Shown: one piece after another, positions 22,694 through 29,205 of the stretch
Layout: every line of letters begins with the position of its first letter
How positions within the stretch are numbered: position 1 is the stretch's first letter
NCBI GenBank assembly: GCA_938073905.1
Contig: CALJEN010000005.1
Location: 1-64,000, forward strand
DNA length: 64,000 bases
Reading direction: 5' to 3'
From: an uncultured Sulfolobales archaeon
GTDB lineage: Archaea > Thermoproteota > Thermoprotei_A > Sulfolobales > NBVN01
Program-made: the position numbers and the translations under genes
The notes under the pieces: model-generated
Databases searched by the model: none
What the model was told of the DNA's origin: nothing
What the model saw: the letters and a program-made list of their open reading frames with translations, nothing else

Positions 22694-22969
22694 CTACGCT
22701 CCCCCTGCTGCTATAGGGAACACGAGGAGCCTGTCCCCGTCCTCCAGAACGTGTTCCAGGCTATCCACAGTCCTCCCGTTGACCGCTACCACCAGCTCCC
22801 GGCGCGCGAACGCCTCGGCGAGAGCTCTGGACAGCTCGACTCCCACGATCGAGCCGAGGTGCTTGGTGAAGAGGTCTCCCAGGGTGCAGCCGGTCTCTAC
22901 CTCGAGCCAGATCCACCTCCTGCCTACCTTCTCGGCTGCGTAGCCCAAGAACTCCACGTAGACCTTCAC
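22694..22969 (-). CDS. MoaD/ThiS-family ubiquitin-like sulfur carrier
   Basis: A beta-grasp protein with VKVYVEFLGYAAEKVG, LVVAVNGRTV and EDGDRLLVFPIAAGG. MoaD donates sulfur to molybdopterin after activation at its C-terminal Gly-Gly. Here the protein ends GGA, one Ala past the usual terminus, so it would need trimming or works otherwise. It lies 61 bases after the AOR gene on the same strand with its own TATA-like CTTTTTATC; a role in making the pyranopterin of that enzyme is likely. GTG 22969 chosen; an in-frame TTG at 22987 is possible. 91 residues. Confidence 0.82.
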   Translation of the reverse strand: MKVYVEFLGYAAEKVGRRWIWLEVETGCTLGDLFTKHLGSIVGVELSRALAEAFARRELVVAVNGRTVDSLEHVLEDGDRLLVFPIAAGGA

Positions 22970-23029
22970 GGCCGGTTCCCGGAACAAGTACGCTTGAGAG
23001 AGATAAAAAGACTCGTCTGCTTAGGGAGG

Positions 23030-24937
23030 TTAAGCCGGAAGCTTCCCCAGCTTCTCGAGCTCGTCCGCTACGTCCTTGAGACCCAGCTCCTCCAGCTTCC
23101 TCCTCGTGGGTATGCCGGTCTTCAGGTCCCAGCCTCTGACGGCGTAGTAGTCGTCGAGCAGCTTCTCGAGCTCGAAGATCTGTCCCTTCGCGGGAGCCCT
23201 CGGGAACGGCTCCTTGAGGAACCTCTCGGGAAGCCAGTCCTCCTTCCTCGTGAAGCCCTCCCTGACGTTGAACGCCCTCTCCAGGTTGTAGACCCTCTCA
23301 CCGACAAGCCAGATGTACCTCGGGTCTCTGAACTCCTCTATACCCGTGGCAGCGTAGAGGGCCCTGGCTATCCAGTCCATAGTCTGCTCCACGCTTCCGT
23401 AGCCCGCCGTCTGGACGAGCTCAGCGAAGGCGCACCAGCCAGCGGCCTCGTAGGCGGCTATCTGGTCCTGCGTCCTCTTGCAGAGCTCTCCCTTGCCCTC
23501 GACGGCCAGCGGGTCGAACCTCTCCGGCATCCCCAGGATCTCGTACTTGTTCCACCCTATCATATGGCTGCCCCCTATGTTCGACGTCGCGTAGCTCAGC
23601 CCGTGGGCCTTGGCTGCCCTCGGGTCGTAGGCCGGCAGCTCCAGGCCCTTCGAGTGCATAGCGTACCTCTCGGCGCCCCTGCCGATTATCTCAGCGGCCC
23701 TCACCGTGCCCTCGGCCAGTATGTTCCCGACGCCCTCCCTCAGGGCTATCTTCCTCACGAGCTCGACTAGAACGTCGGGGTCTCCCCACCTAGCCCTCAG
23801 GCCGTCCAGCTCCCTCTCGGTCACTATGCCCTTCTCGTAGAGCTCCATGACGAACCCTACTATGTTCCCGGCGGATATCGTGTCGATGCCGTACTTGTCG
23901 CAGAGCATGTTGGCGTACTGGATGGCCTCGAGGTTCGTGACTCCGCAGGTCGGGCCCATAGACCAGTGGGTCTCGTACTCGGGGAAGTCGTGGTAGAGAC
24001 CCGCGAAGGGTCCCTTGGTCAGCTTCCACTTCTTTCCGCAGGCTATCATGCAGCCGAAGCACCCCACGTGCTTCATTACGTACTTCTCCAGGACCTCCGG
24101 CCTCCAGACCTCGACGTTCTCGAGCTCCGTGTTCTTGAAGTTGTACGTCGGGTGGTGCCCGAGGGTGTAGAACGAGTACACTATGGAGTTTGTGCCGAGC
24201 CTGTGGAACGGGTCGAACAGCGAGCTCTTCTTGTACACCTCCACCTGCTCTCTGACGAGCTTACCGAACTCGTCCGGCTTGAAGAGCTCGGGCCTCTTGG
24301 TGCCTCTGACGGCAATAGCCTTGAGGTTCTTAGCGCCCCAGACGGCCCCGCTGCCTCCCCTGCCGGGAGTCCTGTAGTCGTCGGACACGAGGCAGGCTAT
24401 CTTCACCAACCTCTCTCCGCCCGGGCCTATGGCCAGCACTCTCGCCTCTCTCTCTGTTTCCTCTCTGATCATCTCGACCGTGCCGTCGACCGTGGTCCCC
24501 CACATCCTCGTAGCGTCCCTGAACTCGACCTCGTCGTCGCGTATCCACACGTAGGTGGGCTTCTCGGCCCTCCCGGTTATCACTATCGCGTCGTAGCCCG
24601 CGAACTTGGCCTCGGCGGCGAAGAACCCTCCGCCGGTAGACCTGAAGTACGAGCCGGTAAGCGGGGACTTGAACATGGCGTACACTTTGTGGAAGCTCTG
24701 AGCAGTCGTGCCGGTGAGGGGGCTCCACGTGAGCACCATGACGCTCTCGGGAGACAGGGGATCTGTCCCGGGCTTCATCCTGTCCCACAGGATCTTGGCT
24801 CCGAAGCCCCTGGCCCCGATGAAGTTGCGGACAAGCTCTCTGGGCGTCTCGACCTTCGTGGCCTTCTTGCTCGTGAGGTCTATCTCGAGAATCCTGCCTG
24901 CGTACCCGTAGAGCTTCTGGACTGCCAGAGATACCAC
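23030..24937 (-). CDS. aor: Aldehyde ferredoxin oxidoreductase (tungsten AOR family)
   Basis: A 635-residue enzyme that oxidises aldehydes to acids with ferredoxin as acceptor. N-terminal domain motif YGYAGRILEIDLTSKKA, pterin-binding RSTGGGFF and GPGGE, the cluster motif GCFGCMIACGKKW (C-x2-C-x3-C) with a distant Cys in AAGWCAFAE, and a SHMIGWNKYE region. The GTG at 24937 is about 27 bases after a strong TATA box, while the frame runs open to 25045. It may remove aldehydes from amino-acid fermentation, feeding the ferredoxin encoded at 8420. The MoaD-like gene follows. Confidence 0.94.
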   Translation of the reverse strand: MVSLAVQKLYGYAGRILEIDLTSKKATKVETPRELVRNFIGARGFGAKILWDRMKPGTDPLSPESVMVLTWSPLTGTTAQSFHKVYAMFKSPLTGSYFRSTGGGFFAAEAKFAGYDAIVITGRAEKPTYVWIRDDEVEFRDATRMWGTTVDGTVEMIREETEREARVLAIGPGGERLVKIACLVSDDYRTPGRGGSGAVWGAKNLKAIAVRGTKRPELFKPDEFGKLVREQVEVYKKSSLFDPFHRLGTNSIVYSFYTLGHHPTYNFKNTELENVEVWRPEVLEKYVMKHVGCFGCMIACGKKWKLTKGPFAGLYHDFPEYETHWSMGPTCGVTNLEAIQYANMLCDKYGIDTISAGNIVGFVMELYEKGIVTERELDGLRARWGDPDVLVELVRKIALREGVGNILAEGTVRAAEIIGRGAERYAMHSKGLELPAYDPRAAKAHGLSYATSNIGGSHMIGWNKYEILGMPERFDPLAVEGKGELCKRTQDQIAAYEAAGWCAFAELVQTAGYGSVEQTMDWIARALYAATGIEEFRDPRYIWLVGERVYNLERAFNVREGFTRKEDWLPERFLKEPFPRAPAKGQIFELEKLLDDYYAVRGWDLKTGIPTRRKLEELGLKDVADELEKLGKLPA

Positions 24938-24959
24938 CGCGCCTTTTCCGTTCCGAGGG

Positions 24960-24968
24960 AATATATAG
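24960..24968 (-). promoter_or_regulatory. TATA box of the AOR gene
   Basis: The minus strand reads CTATATATT, centred about 27 bases before the GTG at 24937; a near-ideal archaeal promoter for a leaderless transcript. Confidence 0.6.
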
Positions 24969-25330
24969 CGAATACTGGGCTCTGGAAAGGTGGGGCGACG
25001 TGTCCCCCTAGCGTAATCAGGCTCACCCCCGAGGTGGGTCGGCATGAGGTATTACGTAGCGCAACGACATATATCGCCAGATTTAACACGGTTAAAGTGC
25101 GTTGTCACCGCGCAATGGGGGACTGCGAAGGAGAGCGCCTCGACGAGCTGTCGCCGTTCTCAGGGCAGGTGAAAGTCCGTCGCGCATCTCGCTCGAGAGC
25201 GCGGTCGTGCCGACAACCTTCTCGGCTTTCCGTAGTCGAGGCCCGCAAAGGAAAGCCCAAGGCCGGGACGCTGGGGATCAGTCGCCCGGGCGATATTTTC
25301 GGTGAGCGCGCGGAATAGCGGGACCCAAGC
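24969..25330. other. Non-coding stretch with possible structured RNA
   Basis: No convincing gene is seen. A TATA-like ATTTAACAC lies at 25081-25089, so an RNA might begin near 25105. Within 25137-25242 an 8-base inverted repeat (GCCTCGAC / GTCGAGGC) encloses GAAAGTCCG and CGGCTTTC, which can pair with a single bulged T as helix P4 of RNase P RNA does. A competing 8-bp hairpin GGCTTTCC / GGAAAGCC (25225-25257) exists, and the ACAGAA core of RNase P RNA is missing, so identity is open. A second TATA-like CGATATTTT at 25291-25299 serves the next gene. Confidence 0.25.
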
Positions 25331-26494
25331 TTGGGCGGGGAGGAGCGCCCGGCTCTGCTGGTCTGCGCCGACTGCGGGAGGGCATACGAGGAGGAGGTCT
25401 TCGCGTGCTCCAGCTGCGGGGGGCTCACGGTGTTCGAATACCCTGGCAGCAGGTTCAACATCGACAGGAGGGAGCCGGGGATCTGGAGGTACAGGTCTCT
25501 CCTCCCCAGGTTAGAGAGGGTGGTCTCCAAGGGGGAGGGGCTGACCCCGGTGAGCAGGCTCGGGGGAGTGCTCGCCAAGAACGAGCAGCGCAACCCCACG
25601 AGCACGTACTCGGACAGGGCTTCCTCCGTCATAGCGAGCTACCTGAGCTCCAGAGGCGTCCCGGGGGTCAGGACGAGGTTCGAGGAGGACTTCACCTACT
25701 CCCTCGTATATTACCTCGAGGGGGTCTCGGCGGTCGAGGTCGTGCTCGATGACCCCCTCTCCCTGGACCGCTCGGACGTGGCCCTCCTGGCTCGGGCTAG
25801 GAACGTGCGCTTGACCAGCCGGGGAAGTTCCTCCGACCTCGTCGACCTCAGCTACCTGAACCCGCTCACGGTAGAGGGGCTGAAGACCATAGCCTTCGAG
25901 ATATACGAGAGGGGGCTGAGGGTGGAGAGGGTCGTGGTCCCCGCGAGGACGGGGCTCCTCGCCTACTCCGTCTGGAAGGGCTTCAGAGACCTCGAGGAGG
26001 CCGGTGCCGAGCCTCACTACGAGGTGGTGGCCGCGTCGATCAAGGGCTCGGGGAGACCCCGCGTGCTCGACCGCGCGAAGTCCGTCAGGGTCGTCGAGGT
26101 GGACGGCGAGGAGGTCCTGGAGTTCCTCGCGAGGCTTTGGAACAGGGGGGTGAGCACTAAGCCCCTCTCGGCCTCCGCCTTCGCGGTGGCCGAGAACCTG
26201 GGGAGCTCCGTGGCCGTGGTCACCATAGGCTTCAGAGCCCCCTCGGGCGGAAGGTCTGGAAGCGCGGGGCTCCGCAGGGAGATAGTCCGCGTGCTCGAGA
26301 GCTACGGAGAGGCTACCGCGTACGAGATATGGAGGAGGCTCCCCGTCTACACCCTCCGCGGGACGTACAAGCTGTTGGAGTCCATGGAGAGGAGGGGCGA
26401 GGTCTGCAGCGAGGTCAGGCCGAGGGGGGAGCGCAAGGTCAGGTACTACATACCGTGCGGCTCTCCCCGCCCGGAGCGCGCGGCTACGTCCTGA
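25331..26494 (+). CDS. Threonine-synthase-like pseudoenzyme fused to a winged-helix domain
   Basis: Residues 1-40 form a zinc ribbon (C12, C15, C26, C29), then EPGIWRYRSLLP and EGLTPVSRLG as in threonine synthase. The PLP motif, normally NPTGSFKDR, reads NPTSTYSDR (88-96): the cofactor Lys is Ser94. The Asn/Ser phosphate loop that follows in real enzymes is also absent, while EGLKTIAFEIYE near 187 is kept. Residues 310-380 look like a winged helix (REIVRVLESYG, TLRGTYKLLESMERRGEV, KVRYYIP). I infer a ligand-binding regulator rather than an enzyme. TTG start about 35 bases after a TATA-like box; convergent with nurA, overlapping by 11 bases. Confidence 0.75.
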   Translation: MGGEERPALLVCADCGRAYEEEVFACSSCGGLTVFEYPGSRFNIDRREPGIWRYRSLLPRLERVVSKGEGLTPVSRLGGVLAKNEQRNPTSTYSDRASSVIASYLSSRGVPGVRTRFEEDFTYSLVYYLEGVSAVEVVLDDPLSLDRSDVALLARARNVRLTSRGSSSDLVDLSYLNPLTVEGLKTIAFEIYERGLRVERVVVPARTGLLAYSVWKGFRDLEEAGAEPHYEVVAASIKGSGRPRVLDRAKSVRVVEVDGEEVLEFLARLWNRGVSTKPLSASAFAVAENLGSSVAVVTIGFRAPSGGRSGSAGLRREIVRVLESYGEATAYEIWRRLPVYTLRGTYKLLESMERRGEVCSEVRPRGERKVRYYIPCGSPRPERAATS

Positions 26495-27671
26495 GACCGA
26501 TCGTGTTCAGCTTCTGGGGGTTTACCAGAGAGAACAGCTTCTCGGCGACCTCCGGGTTCCTCTCGCCTATCCTCTGGAGGACGAGCTGGTACACCGTGAA
26601 CCTAGCGTCGCCCGGTATCTGGGAGAGCGCGTCCGCGTAGTCGACCGGTGCCGGGAAGCCCGTCGCCTCGCTCACCGCGGCTGCCGAGGAGACAATCTCC
26701 TCGTCGCTGAGCCCGGCCGCGCAGTACTCCACCTTGACCGCCGCGCTGCTGAAGCCCGCGCTCGGCCTGTAGAGGGCCATCCTCATCTTGCTGGCCGCGC
26801 TGGTGCGTCCCTTCATGTACTTGAACCACCTCAGCCTGTACTTGGCCAGCGCGTACTCCCGGGGAAACGCCTCGCCGTACTCTTCGACCAGGTGCTCGTA
26901 CGCCGAGGTTATCTTCTCGTAGTCCCCGAGGACGAAGAGCTCCCCGGGCTCCAGGACGTAGGTGAAGAAGGCCCTGTCGCTGAGCTTGACCTTGGAAAAG
27001 AGTCCGCGCTCCGCGAAATCGCGCTCCAGCACTGCCAGAGCGTCCTTGGAGTAGCTCCTCTTCAGCACGCCGAGCACGGGAGTCCCCGTCTTCTCTGCCA
27101 AGAGGACCATGTTATCAGTGCGGCGTATGATCTCTTCGACGACATTCGGTTCCCCGCCCACTGCGGTGAACATCCTCGGCGAGATCCTCGGGATCACCTC
27201 GCCGTCCAGGACCAGGACGTCGAAGTGGATCTCGCCGCTCGACTTCCTCCTCAGCGCTTCGCGGGCCCTCTCCCTCTCGCGCAGCCTGGCCTCGAGCCTC
27301 GTCAGGTCTCTGGTCGGGTCGTAGGTCACGTACGCGCTCAGCTCCACCCCGGAGGTCTCATGGCGGCAGCTCCTCCCATACATGACGCTCGCCACGAAGA
27401 CTATCCCGAGATACCCTCCGACGAGCTCTAGCGGAGGGGAGGTGTAGCTGGAGTCCACGGCCAGGTAGCAGAGGTCCGGTGCCGTCCCGATCCTCCCGAT
27501 GCTGCCACTGGTCACCAGCTTCTCCCTGACCCTGGCGGCAATGCGCGCTATCGAGGCTACCCTGCCGATCCTCTTCACCACGGAGTCCAGGACCTTCTCG
27601 ACGAGCTCGGGAGCTATCCCGAGGGCTCCCTCAGCTACCTCCAGACCCTCCAGCGGTCTCCGGCTCTCCAA
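26484..27671 (-). CDS. nurA: NurA 5'-3' nuclease
   Basis: A 395-residue RNase-H-like nuclease that resects DNA ends together with HerA. The first catalytic Asp is in LAVDSSYTSPP, the second acidic region in FDVLVLDGEVIP, and VEYCAAG with following acidic residues near the C-terminus fits the rest of the site. It overlaps the 3' end of herA by 41 bases and so is translationally coupled to it. Mre11 and Rad50, which often accompany the pair in archaea, are not in this window. Confidence 0.9.
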   Translation of the reverse strand: MESRRPLEGLEVAEGALGIAPELVEKVLDSVVKRIGRVASIARIAARVREKLVTSGSIGRIGTAPDLCYLAVDSSYTSPPLELVGGYLGIVFVASVMYGRSCRHETSGVELSAYVTYDPTRDLTRLEARLRERERAREALRRKSSGEIHFDVLVLDGEVIPRISPRMFTAVGGEPNVVEEIIRRTDNMVLLAEKTGTPVLGVLKRSYSKDALAVLERDFAERGLFSKVKLSDRAFFTYVLEPGELFVLGDYEKITSAYEHLVEEYGEAFPREYALAKYRLRWFKYMKGRTSAASKMRMALYRPSAGFSSAAVKVEYCAAGLSDEEIVSSAAAVSEATGFPAPVDYADALSQIPGDARFTVYQLVLQRIGERNPEVAEKLFSLVNPQKLNTIGLRT

Positions 27672-29205
27672 CCTTCTCCACCTCGGGCTCCTTGACCTCC
27701 CTCACCTTGACGAGTATCGGGAACCTCAGGGGGTTTCCGAGACCGGCGAAGAAGAACTCCCTCGTGCTCAGGGTCGAGAGAGTGTCGGGGCCTATGCCGC
27801 CGAGGTCTAGGACTCCCTCGAGGTTCTTGAAGTCGCCGGGGGTCTGGAGCCTGCTGAAGTAGAACGTGTTTATGTTGTTCCTGACGTCCGTCGAGAAGTC
27901 TATCATCCTCTGGCTGGCCAGCACGAGGCCTATCTCCCACTTCCTACCCTCCCTCGCCGTCCTCTCGATGGCGCTCAGGGAGGGGGCGCACCTCTCGCAG
28001 GCGTAGTTGTGGGCCTCGTCCACCACCACGAGGACCCTCGGCTTCTCTCCCCTCTCGTCTACGAGCCTCCAGAGCCCCTCTATTACCGACTTCACCACGA
28101 ACCTCTTCACCCTGATGTCCGCCCTGCTCAGGTCGACCACGGCTAGCCCCTCCTTCAGGGCCCTGTCGACCACGTCTCCGGTCGTGAGCTTCTTCTCGTT
28201 GAGGGACTCGACCAGGCCTCTGGCGTAGGTCCGCAGCAGCAGAGACATCTTCGCGAGCGTTGCCTCCCGCGCTTTCAAGGACGAGCCCACCTCGTAGACG
28301 CACTTGACTAGGGAGTCTAGGCTCCACTTGATTCCAGTCATGACCCTCTCCGGGTCGGTGAGATCTAGGTGCTCGACAGCTTCGAGGCTGCAGTGACCGG
28401 GCTCCCTGGACACCCCGCCCCTGACCGCCGCCTCCCGGCCGAAGCCCTCCAGGGTCTTCGGGGGCTTGGCGGAGCTTCCGAGCCCGTGCATGTACGCTAT
28501 GTACGCGTATATCGACGAGACGATGTAGTCCAGTTGCTCCTCGAGCATCGACGCATCGGCCAGCAGCTCCCCGAGGGTCGGCGGGTCGGGCATTATCTGC
28601 GAAGAGTCCACGACTTTATCGGAGTAGTACGATACGTAGTCGACACCGGAGTGGTCGAACACTATCACCTTCCAGCCGGTCTTGGCGAGCACCTCGTCCA
28701 CGAGGGCCTTCACCAGCCTGGACTTGCCCGTGCCCGTAGCCCCCACGACGCAGATGTGGTAGGGGAGGTAGCTGGGGTCTAGGGGGACCTTAATCCCGGA
28801 GTGCTTGTGCTCCCCCACGATGAGCCCCTCGCCCAGGCTGAGGTCCACGTCCTCTGGAGACTCGACCAGCAACACCTCGCTCCTCGGGGTCGGCGGGTCT
28901 GCCGAGGGCTCCAGCCTCCCGTCCCTCACCTCACCGACTATCCTGACATAGGAGTTCTCGAACGGTAGGTTCGTGGCCATCTCTGCCAGCCTGGGGTTGT
29001 CGACCACTCCGGACCTCTGCGTCGCCGGGAGCAGGGGGTCTATCTTGGTCAGCCATCTCATGACCCCGAGGTACTGCTTGGCCCTCGCTCTGTCCCTTAT
29101 GATGACCAGGGACTCCTCCCGGACTACCCTCTCGGCCTCCTTGTAGACCAGGACGTAGGTGTAGAACGATTTCGACCAGCTCGCGACAACGCCTATCGGC
29201 CTCAC
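27631..29205 (-). CDS. herA: HerA DNA translocase/helicase
   Basis: A hexameric FtsK-HerA family ATPase of 524 residues for DNA end processing in homologous recombination. The N-terminal HAS-barrel region is followed by Walker A GATGTGKS (155-162), Walker B VLVVVDEAHNYA and the arginine-finger region GRKWEIGLVLASQRM. A Cys pair (ACERCAPS) stands directly after Walker B. The GTG at 29205 follows a TATA-like GGTTATTAAGG by some 33 bases. Operon with nurA. Confidence 0.92.
   Translation of the reverse strand: MRPIGVVASWSKSFYTYVLVYKEAERVVREESLVIIRDRARAKQYLGVMRWLTKIDPLLPATQRSGVVDNPRLAEMATNLPFENSYVRIVGEVRDGRLEPSADPPTPRSEVLLVESPEDVDLSLGEGLIVGEHKHSGIKVPLDPSYLPYHICVVGATGTGKSRLVKALVDEVLAKTGWKVIVFDHSGVDYVSYYSDKVVDSSQIMPDPPTLGELLADASMLEEQLDYIVSSIYAYIAYMHGLGSSAKPPKTLEGFGREAAVRGGVSREPGHCSLEAVEHLDLTDPERVMTGIKWSLDSLVKCVYEVGSSLKAREATLAKMSLLLRTYARGLVESLNEKKLTTGDVVDRALKEGLAVVDLSRADIRVKRFVVKSVIEGLWRLVDERGEKPRVLVVVDEAHNYACERCAPSLSAIERTAREGRKWEIGLVLASQRMIDFSTDVRNNINTFYFSRLQTPGDFKNLEGVLDLGGIGPDTLSTLSTREFFFAGLGNPLRFPILVKVREVKEPEVEKVGEPETAGGSGGS

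Follow-up and report, generated by a model that had tools for sequence, protein, structure and literature searches.

A candidate archaeal regulator of vitamin B6 genes with a threonine synthase fold that lacks the PLP lysine

The window, i.e., the whole stretch of 64,000 nucleotides analysed here, derives from an uncultured Sulfolobales archaeon and contains a gene whose product combines a threonine-synthase-like domain with a C-terminal winged helix-turn-helix (wHTH) domain (Table 1). A sequence-only reading of this DNA had placed the gene convergent to nurA and herA, and the identity of both neighbours could be confirmed by their protein families. A gene for an aldehyde ferredoxin oxidoreductase (window positions 23030-25045) and a gene for a ThiS/MoaD-like protein (22694-22987) lie on the other side. 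A functional link to the divergent oxidoreductase gene was considered and rejected since the divergent arrangement was seen in no genome besides that of the window and that of its nearest relative, G006.

Table 1. Features of the regulator gene and its convergent neighbours (positions in the window)
Feature	Position	Strand	Basis
Regulator CDS, pseudo-threonine-synthase/winged-helix protein, 387 aa, TTG start	25331..26494	+	ORF analysis, ortholog alignment
N-terminal zinc ribbon, C12-x2-C15 ... C26-x2-C29	25364..25417	+	conserved alignment columns
Degenerate PLP-lysine motif NPTSTYSDR; Ser94 codon (25610-25612) in place of Lys	25592..25618	+	alignment
FEEDFT, replacing the S-x-G-N cofactor/carboxylate loop	25679..25696	+	alignment
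PARTGLL, replacing the PLP phosphate loop (P-V-G-N-A-G-N)	25940..25960	+	alignment
C-terminal winged helix-turn-helix, residues 310-375	26258..26455	+	AF2, Foldseek, hhalign
Putative recognition helix, residues 342-354, LRGTYKLLESMER	26354..26392	+	secondary structure, conserved L/R/Y columns; assignment inferred
nurA, convergent neighbour, context only	26484..27671	-	PF09376
herA, neighbour, context only	27631..29205	-	PF01935

The protein matches the PALP family PF00291 (1.6e-15, Pfam), and the AF2 model of the whole protein (pLDDT 88.7, pTM 0.79; alignment of 35 relatives) is closest to the threonine synthase structures 6nmx, 2c2b and 1v7c in the PDB, with E-values of about 1e-13. The sequence-only reading had described a threonine-synthase-like protein which has kept its zinc ribbon and lost the PLP lysine as well as the phosphate-binding loop, and all of this holds: the cysteines C12, C15, C26 and C29 are present in nearly all orthologs, Ser94 in the motif NPTSTYSDR (residues 88-96) occupies the position of the lysine in NPTGSFKDR, the motif of a homolog encoded in the same genome (L002, G000:C11), and PARTGLL has taken the place of the phosphate loop. 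The protein thus resembles ThrC (PF00291, TIGR00260) in its overall fold, the zinc ribbon and the NPT..DR and EG.KT segments, but differs from it by the absence of the lysine, the S-x-G-N loop and the phosphate loop and by the additional winged helix. It could still be argued that the gene encodes an active but diverged threonine synthase, or another PALP enzyme with a point mutation, as the best NCBIfam matches are all threonine synthases. These matches, however, remain far below the curated cut-offs (18 bits versus 167.1 for TIGR00260 and 94.3 bits versus 421 for PRK05638/NF004170). Both cofactor loops are gone, the genome possesses the intact Lys-bearing homolog, and the lysine is missing in all orthologs, which also rules out a point mutation or an assembly error in the window; an active enzyme is therefore considered extremely unlikely.

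The C-terminal 83 residues were modelled separately with a pLDDT of 85.7 and show the order helix-helix-helix-strand-strand. The top 50 PDB matches of this model in Foldseek are uniformly winged-helix proteins (TFE, YodB, PadR, LmrR and others); the single E-values are only 1.5e-3 or weaker, and the support comes from the uniformity of the list. In addition, an hhalign comparison of the C-termini of the window clade with the PadR-like wHTH of sister clades gave an E-value of 3.9e-16. A Pfam search with the protein's own C-terminus returned no match, while the C-termini of other family members match TrmB/HTH families. A search of PDB sequences with the wHTH profile also gave no match, and folds were compared instead; an Rfam search around the start of the regulator gene found nothing. 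Structure prediction with comparison to threonine synthase, which the sequence-only reading had proposed as a check along with an ortholog search, thus confirmed the fold and yielded a confident model of the postulated winged helix. The domain is related to PadR/TrmB-type regulators by its fold and by profile similarity, but is combined with another sensor domain.

Orthologs were collected by whole-genome and GTDB searches. In the phylogenetic tree, the window-type orthologs form one clade with an SH-aLRT support of 100; the residue at the lysine position is Ser, Ala, Val, Thr or Met, never Lys, and every member carries the wHTH, so that the absence of the lysine and the presence of the winged helix go together throughout the clade. 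Among 131 related ORFs that were tabulated, and which were collected for their similarity to the window protein and are not an unbiased census, the lysine is kept in all 50 relatives without a wHTH versus three of the 81 with a wHTH, all three from Lokiarchaeota (L189 was counted as wHTH-bearing although its E-value of 0.002 is just under the threshold of the script). At the lysine position, the remaining wHTH clades carry Arg, Phe/Tyr or Ile/Leu, and the clade with Arg retains the S-x-G-N and phosphate loops. On the tree, the distribution of the wHTH requires a single change and that of the lysine two. The branch separating fused and non-fused proteins has a support of 89 and the root of the tree is not known; judged from these sequences, a single fusion of a threonine synthase with a wHTH is likely, but not proven. 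The Lokiarchaeota forms with both lysine and wHTH are possibly the ancestral, PLP-linked state.

Hints at the biological role of the family come from its gene neighbourhood. By hand count, the regulator gene adjoins pdxS and/or pdxT, which encode PLP synthase, at 23 of 42 clade loci, and the typical arrangement within the order is a tight, often overlapping cluster of the regulator with two genes identified by Pfam as pdxS (SOR_SNZ, PF01680) and pdxT (SNO, PF01174). In the genome of the window and in its closest relative G006, the regulator lies apart from pdxST, which is found at G000:C2:175520 (L171) and encodes PdxS and PdxT proteins that pass the NCBIfam cut-offs. Three genomes of the same genus show the order pdxS-pdxT-regulator followed by convergent nurA-herA, and the window can therefore be seen as a split version of this arrangement. 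A functional link to nurA-herA was rejected, as the linkage is confined to the same genus, with pdxST on the other side of the regulator. In G011, the regulator gene is followed by the ECF-S, ECF-A and ECF-T genes of an ECF transporter; the same three-gene transporter lies directly downstream of the genes of the Arg clade and of one Ile/Leu subclade, and an Arg form from Bathyarchaeota (L015) is likewise followed by ECF-S. Further observations concern single loci: the Lokiarchaeota forms that keep the lysine (L021 4944-6422; L022 4992-6419) are found near an ECF-S gene, a second Ile/Leu-type subclade (L185-L191) has neither pdxST nor ECF genes as neighbours, and G069 has a broken regulator ORF and a broken pdxT, with pdxS and the operator described below still present (L170 7709-8729).

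Across 117 genomes of the order, the regulator is present in all 22 genomes having the regulator-linked type of PdxS and in none of the 40 genomes having the other PdxS type (Fisher 6e-16); the shared ancestry of the genomes inflates such p-values, and the value can only serve as a guide. PdxS and ECF-S tend toward mutual exclusion with an odds ratio of 0.2, and PdxS occurs in only two of 14 genomes of the Arg and Phe/Tyr clades. In some genomes (G071, G085, G004 and G100), the regulator is present although PdxS, ECF-S and a clear site are all missing; in G004, the regulator gene (L108 6456-7610) follows a gene for a PLP enzyme of Cys/Met metabolism.

A comparison of the pdxS promoters of regulator-bearing genomes revealed the palindrome TTGAACGTTCAA. 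All 25 pdxS promoters measured in the clade contain it with at most two mismatches, 18 of them with at most one, and it is separated from the pdxS start by 37-54 nt throughout; among 20 control promoters of pdxS from genomes without the regulator, none has a site with at most one mismatch and a single one has a site with two. The genome of the window (1.3 Mb, 79% complete) contains a single site with at most one mismatch, which is located 44 nt before pdxS. The exact 12-mer is present in 20 of the 117 genomes, its reversed control in two; three of these 20 genomes (G035, G045 and G129) have no regulator and look like background. The palindrome also precedes ECF-S in G038 and G073, which lack PdxS, lies between the regulator and ECF-S in G011, and is found before both ECF-S and pdxS in G057. 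On its 3' side follow [TC]AAA and a TTTATA-like stretch, which we read as putative BRE and TATA elements; the distance from there to the start is roughly 25-35 nt. For a site directly upstream of BRE/TATA, an activator fits best; a repressor that blocks TFB is not excluded. No operator was found upstream of the regulator gene itself in the window, and autoregulation was rejected there: the sole site (401-412) has two mismatches, which is chance level.

Several other occurrences of the palindrome deserve mention. In G127, the pdxS operator is present and the regulator was not found; pdxS of this genome (L258) runs into the frame of an unrelated AAA ATPase after about 140 residues, which suggests that the contig is chimeric at pdxS. 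G101 and G078, which have the regulator and neither PdxS nor ECF-S, carry an operator-like site 37 and 45 nt, respectively, before genes for similar amino-acid permeases of PF00324 (L262 1550-2944 and L261 1558-2931), which are candidate B6 permeases. In G063, the exact 12-mer is located at the start of a gene for a solute-binding protein divergent from an ABC permease (L242 1501), and this pair is a candidate B6 uptake system.

The sister clade with Arg provides a partial replicate. A different palindrome, CTTAAAG-N4-AACTTWA, precedes ECF-S in ten genomes, nine of which carry an Arg-clade gene; in the tenth, G098 (L212), no Arg-clade regulator was found, an exception that is unexplained. This palindrome occurs at 19 sites in 18 of the 117 genomes, its reversed control in four; of the sites examined, ten are in ECF-S promoters and one belongs to pdxS. 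The pdxS site is found in G088, 36 nt upstream of the gene, and thus the operator of the transporter promoter also marks a gene of B6 synthesis. The presumed recognition helix reads LRG-Y in the window clade versus QAVYQH in the sister clades, i.e., operator and helix change together between clades.

The ECF-S gene product belongs to PF07155 (8e-26), and its best sequence match in the PDB is chain S of 4hzu (E 3.8e-9), which is HmpT, a reported pyridoxamine carrier (PMC4860826). The B6 S-components PdxU and PdxU2/HmpT are members of PF07155 (PMC9997740). As PF07155 is by name also the riboflavin S-component family, the substrate could not be assigned from the Pfam match alone; most of the weight rests on the regulatory connection with pdxS, which suggests that this archaeal ECF transporter family is of the B6 type, the substrate being inferred.

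One could speculate that the protein is a regulatory partner of PdxS and PdxT which does not bind DNA, and that the palindrome belongs to another factor. The tight linkage to pdxST would agree with this, and the pseudoenzyme PDX1.2, which regulates B6 biosynthesis in plants (PMC6829848), provides a precedent. However, this explanation is improbable, since the winged helix is modelled with confidence, one member of the clade lies beside the ECF transporter instead of pdxST, and the operator sequence varies with the regulator clade. We propose, with a probability of roughly 0.8, that the pseudo-threonine-synthase is a transcription factor which controls B6 synthesis and uptake. Several observations weigh against this proposal: the separation of the regulator gene from pdxST in the window's genome, the genomes that have the regulator but no PdxS, ECF-S or clear site, the operators of G069 and G127, for which no intact regulator was found, and the absence of an operator in front of the regulator gene in the window. 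The fold, the loss of the lysine, the wHTH, the operon linkage, the co-occurrence and the conservation and position of the operator were obtained by sequence analysis; without binding data, the binding of the protein to the operator, PLP or another B6 vitamer as ligand and the sign of regulation are inferred only. The idea of the sequence-only reading that an enzyme was turned into a transcription factor is supported by the clade that combines lysine loss with the wHTH and by the conserved operator in the predicted target promoters; a phosphorylated amino acid, which it had offered as a possible ligand, found no support, the context being vitamin B6.

According to the proposed mechanism, a fold-type-II PLP-enzyme domain that has lost the Schiff-base lysine and the cofactor loops would act as the sensor and probably as the dimerisation domain. 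The C-terminal winged helix would bind the palindrome abutting the BRE/TATA of the pdxST promoter or, in some relatives, that of the ECF vitamin transporter, and B6 synthesis or uptake would respond to the amount of a B6 compound, PLP being the simplest candidate. Because the site is directly upstream of BRE/TATA and by analogy with apo-PdxR, activation at low PLP is somewhat favoured. In the old lysine loop (residues 83-96), eight of 14 residues are invariant across the clade versus about 10% for the whole protein, and residues 175-193 are also strongly conserved; the conservation of both segments points to a ligand of some kind, and the invariance of the loop suggests that the pocket may still be in use. 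There is less certainty that the window clade binds PLP, as its two cofactor loops have been rewritten and a new binding mode would be needed. It is possible, though we doubt it, that the transcription factor regulates B6 genes while its threonine-synthase domain senses another metabolite or serves as a dimer scaffold only. The loss of the S-x-G-N and G-N-A-G-N loops and the variability of the first altered position of the phosphate loop (R, E, K, V or T in the window clade) would fit this; however, the clade shows hardly any variation in the pocket segments NPT-x-x-Y-x-D-R and EGxKTI, and both loops are retained in the sister clade, whose regulon is of the same kind.

The proposed B6 regulator resembles the bacterial MocR-type factor PdxR, which also combines a PLP-enzyme domain with a winged helix, controls pdxST and B6 uptake (pdxU) and has its operator near the pdxST promoter (PMC5320631); the likeness was tested here and extends to the genomic linkage with pdxST, whose promoter contains a conserved operator. 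The apo form of PdxR activates pdxST and PLP opposes this (PMC5320631). In contrast to the window protein, a fold-type-II threonine synthase without lysine and with a C-terminal wHTH, PdxR has a fold-type-I aminotransferase-like domain and an N-terminal wHTH of the GntR family. MocR-type PLP factors were reported to be absent from Archaea (PMC5320631). No report of a threonine-synthase-like DNA-binding regulator was found in the open literature (most subscription papers were outside the scope), and no archaeal regulator of either the synthesis or the salvage of PLP is described in the literature searched. The family provides a candidate archaeal B6 regulator for which the operator, its place in the promoter and the target genes are defined; if true, a PLP enzyme would have been recruited independently for a second time as the sensor of its own cofactor. 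With slightly more belief than doubt, we suppose that it is a large archaeal transcription factor family which arose by a single threonine-synthase/winged-helix fusion, lost the lysine and diversified with matched operators, exerting widespread B6 control as a convergent fold-type-II counterpart of PdxR that senses free PLP, here without lysine or phosphate loop. The replacements of the lysine differ by clade (Arg, Phe/Tyr, Ile/Leu, Ser/Ala).

The sister clade matching PRK05638/NF004170 shares the threonine-synthase-like domain, the PadR-like wHTH and the proximity to ECF transporter genes with this family, but has Arg in place of the lysine and both cofactor loops intact. Ten proteins (L073-L082, from G088, G048, G082, G103, G123, G118, G128, G108, G074 and G093) match the PRK05638 "threonine synthase" model and have Arg at the PLP-lysine position together with a PadR-like wHTH; seven of them exceed its cut-off. 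The annotation of these Arg-type proteins as threonine synthases is probably wrong, and they are probably regulators instead.
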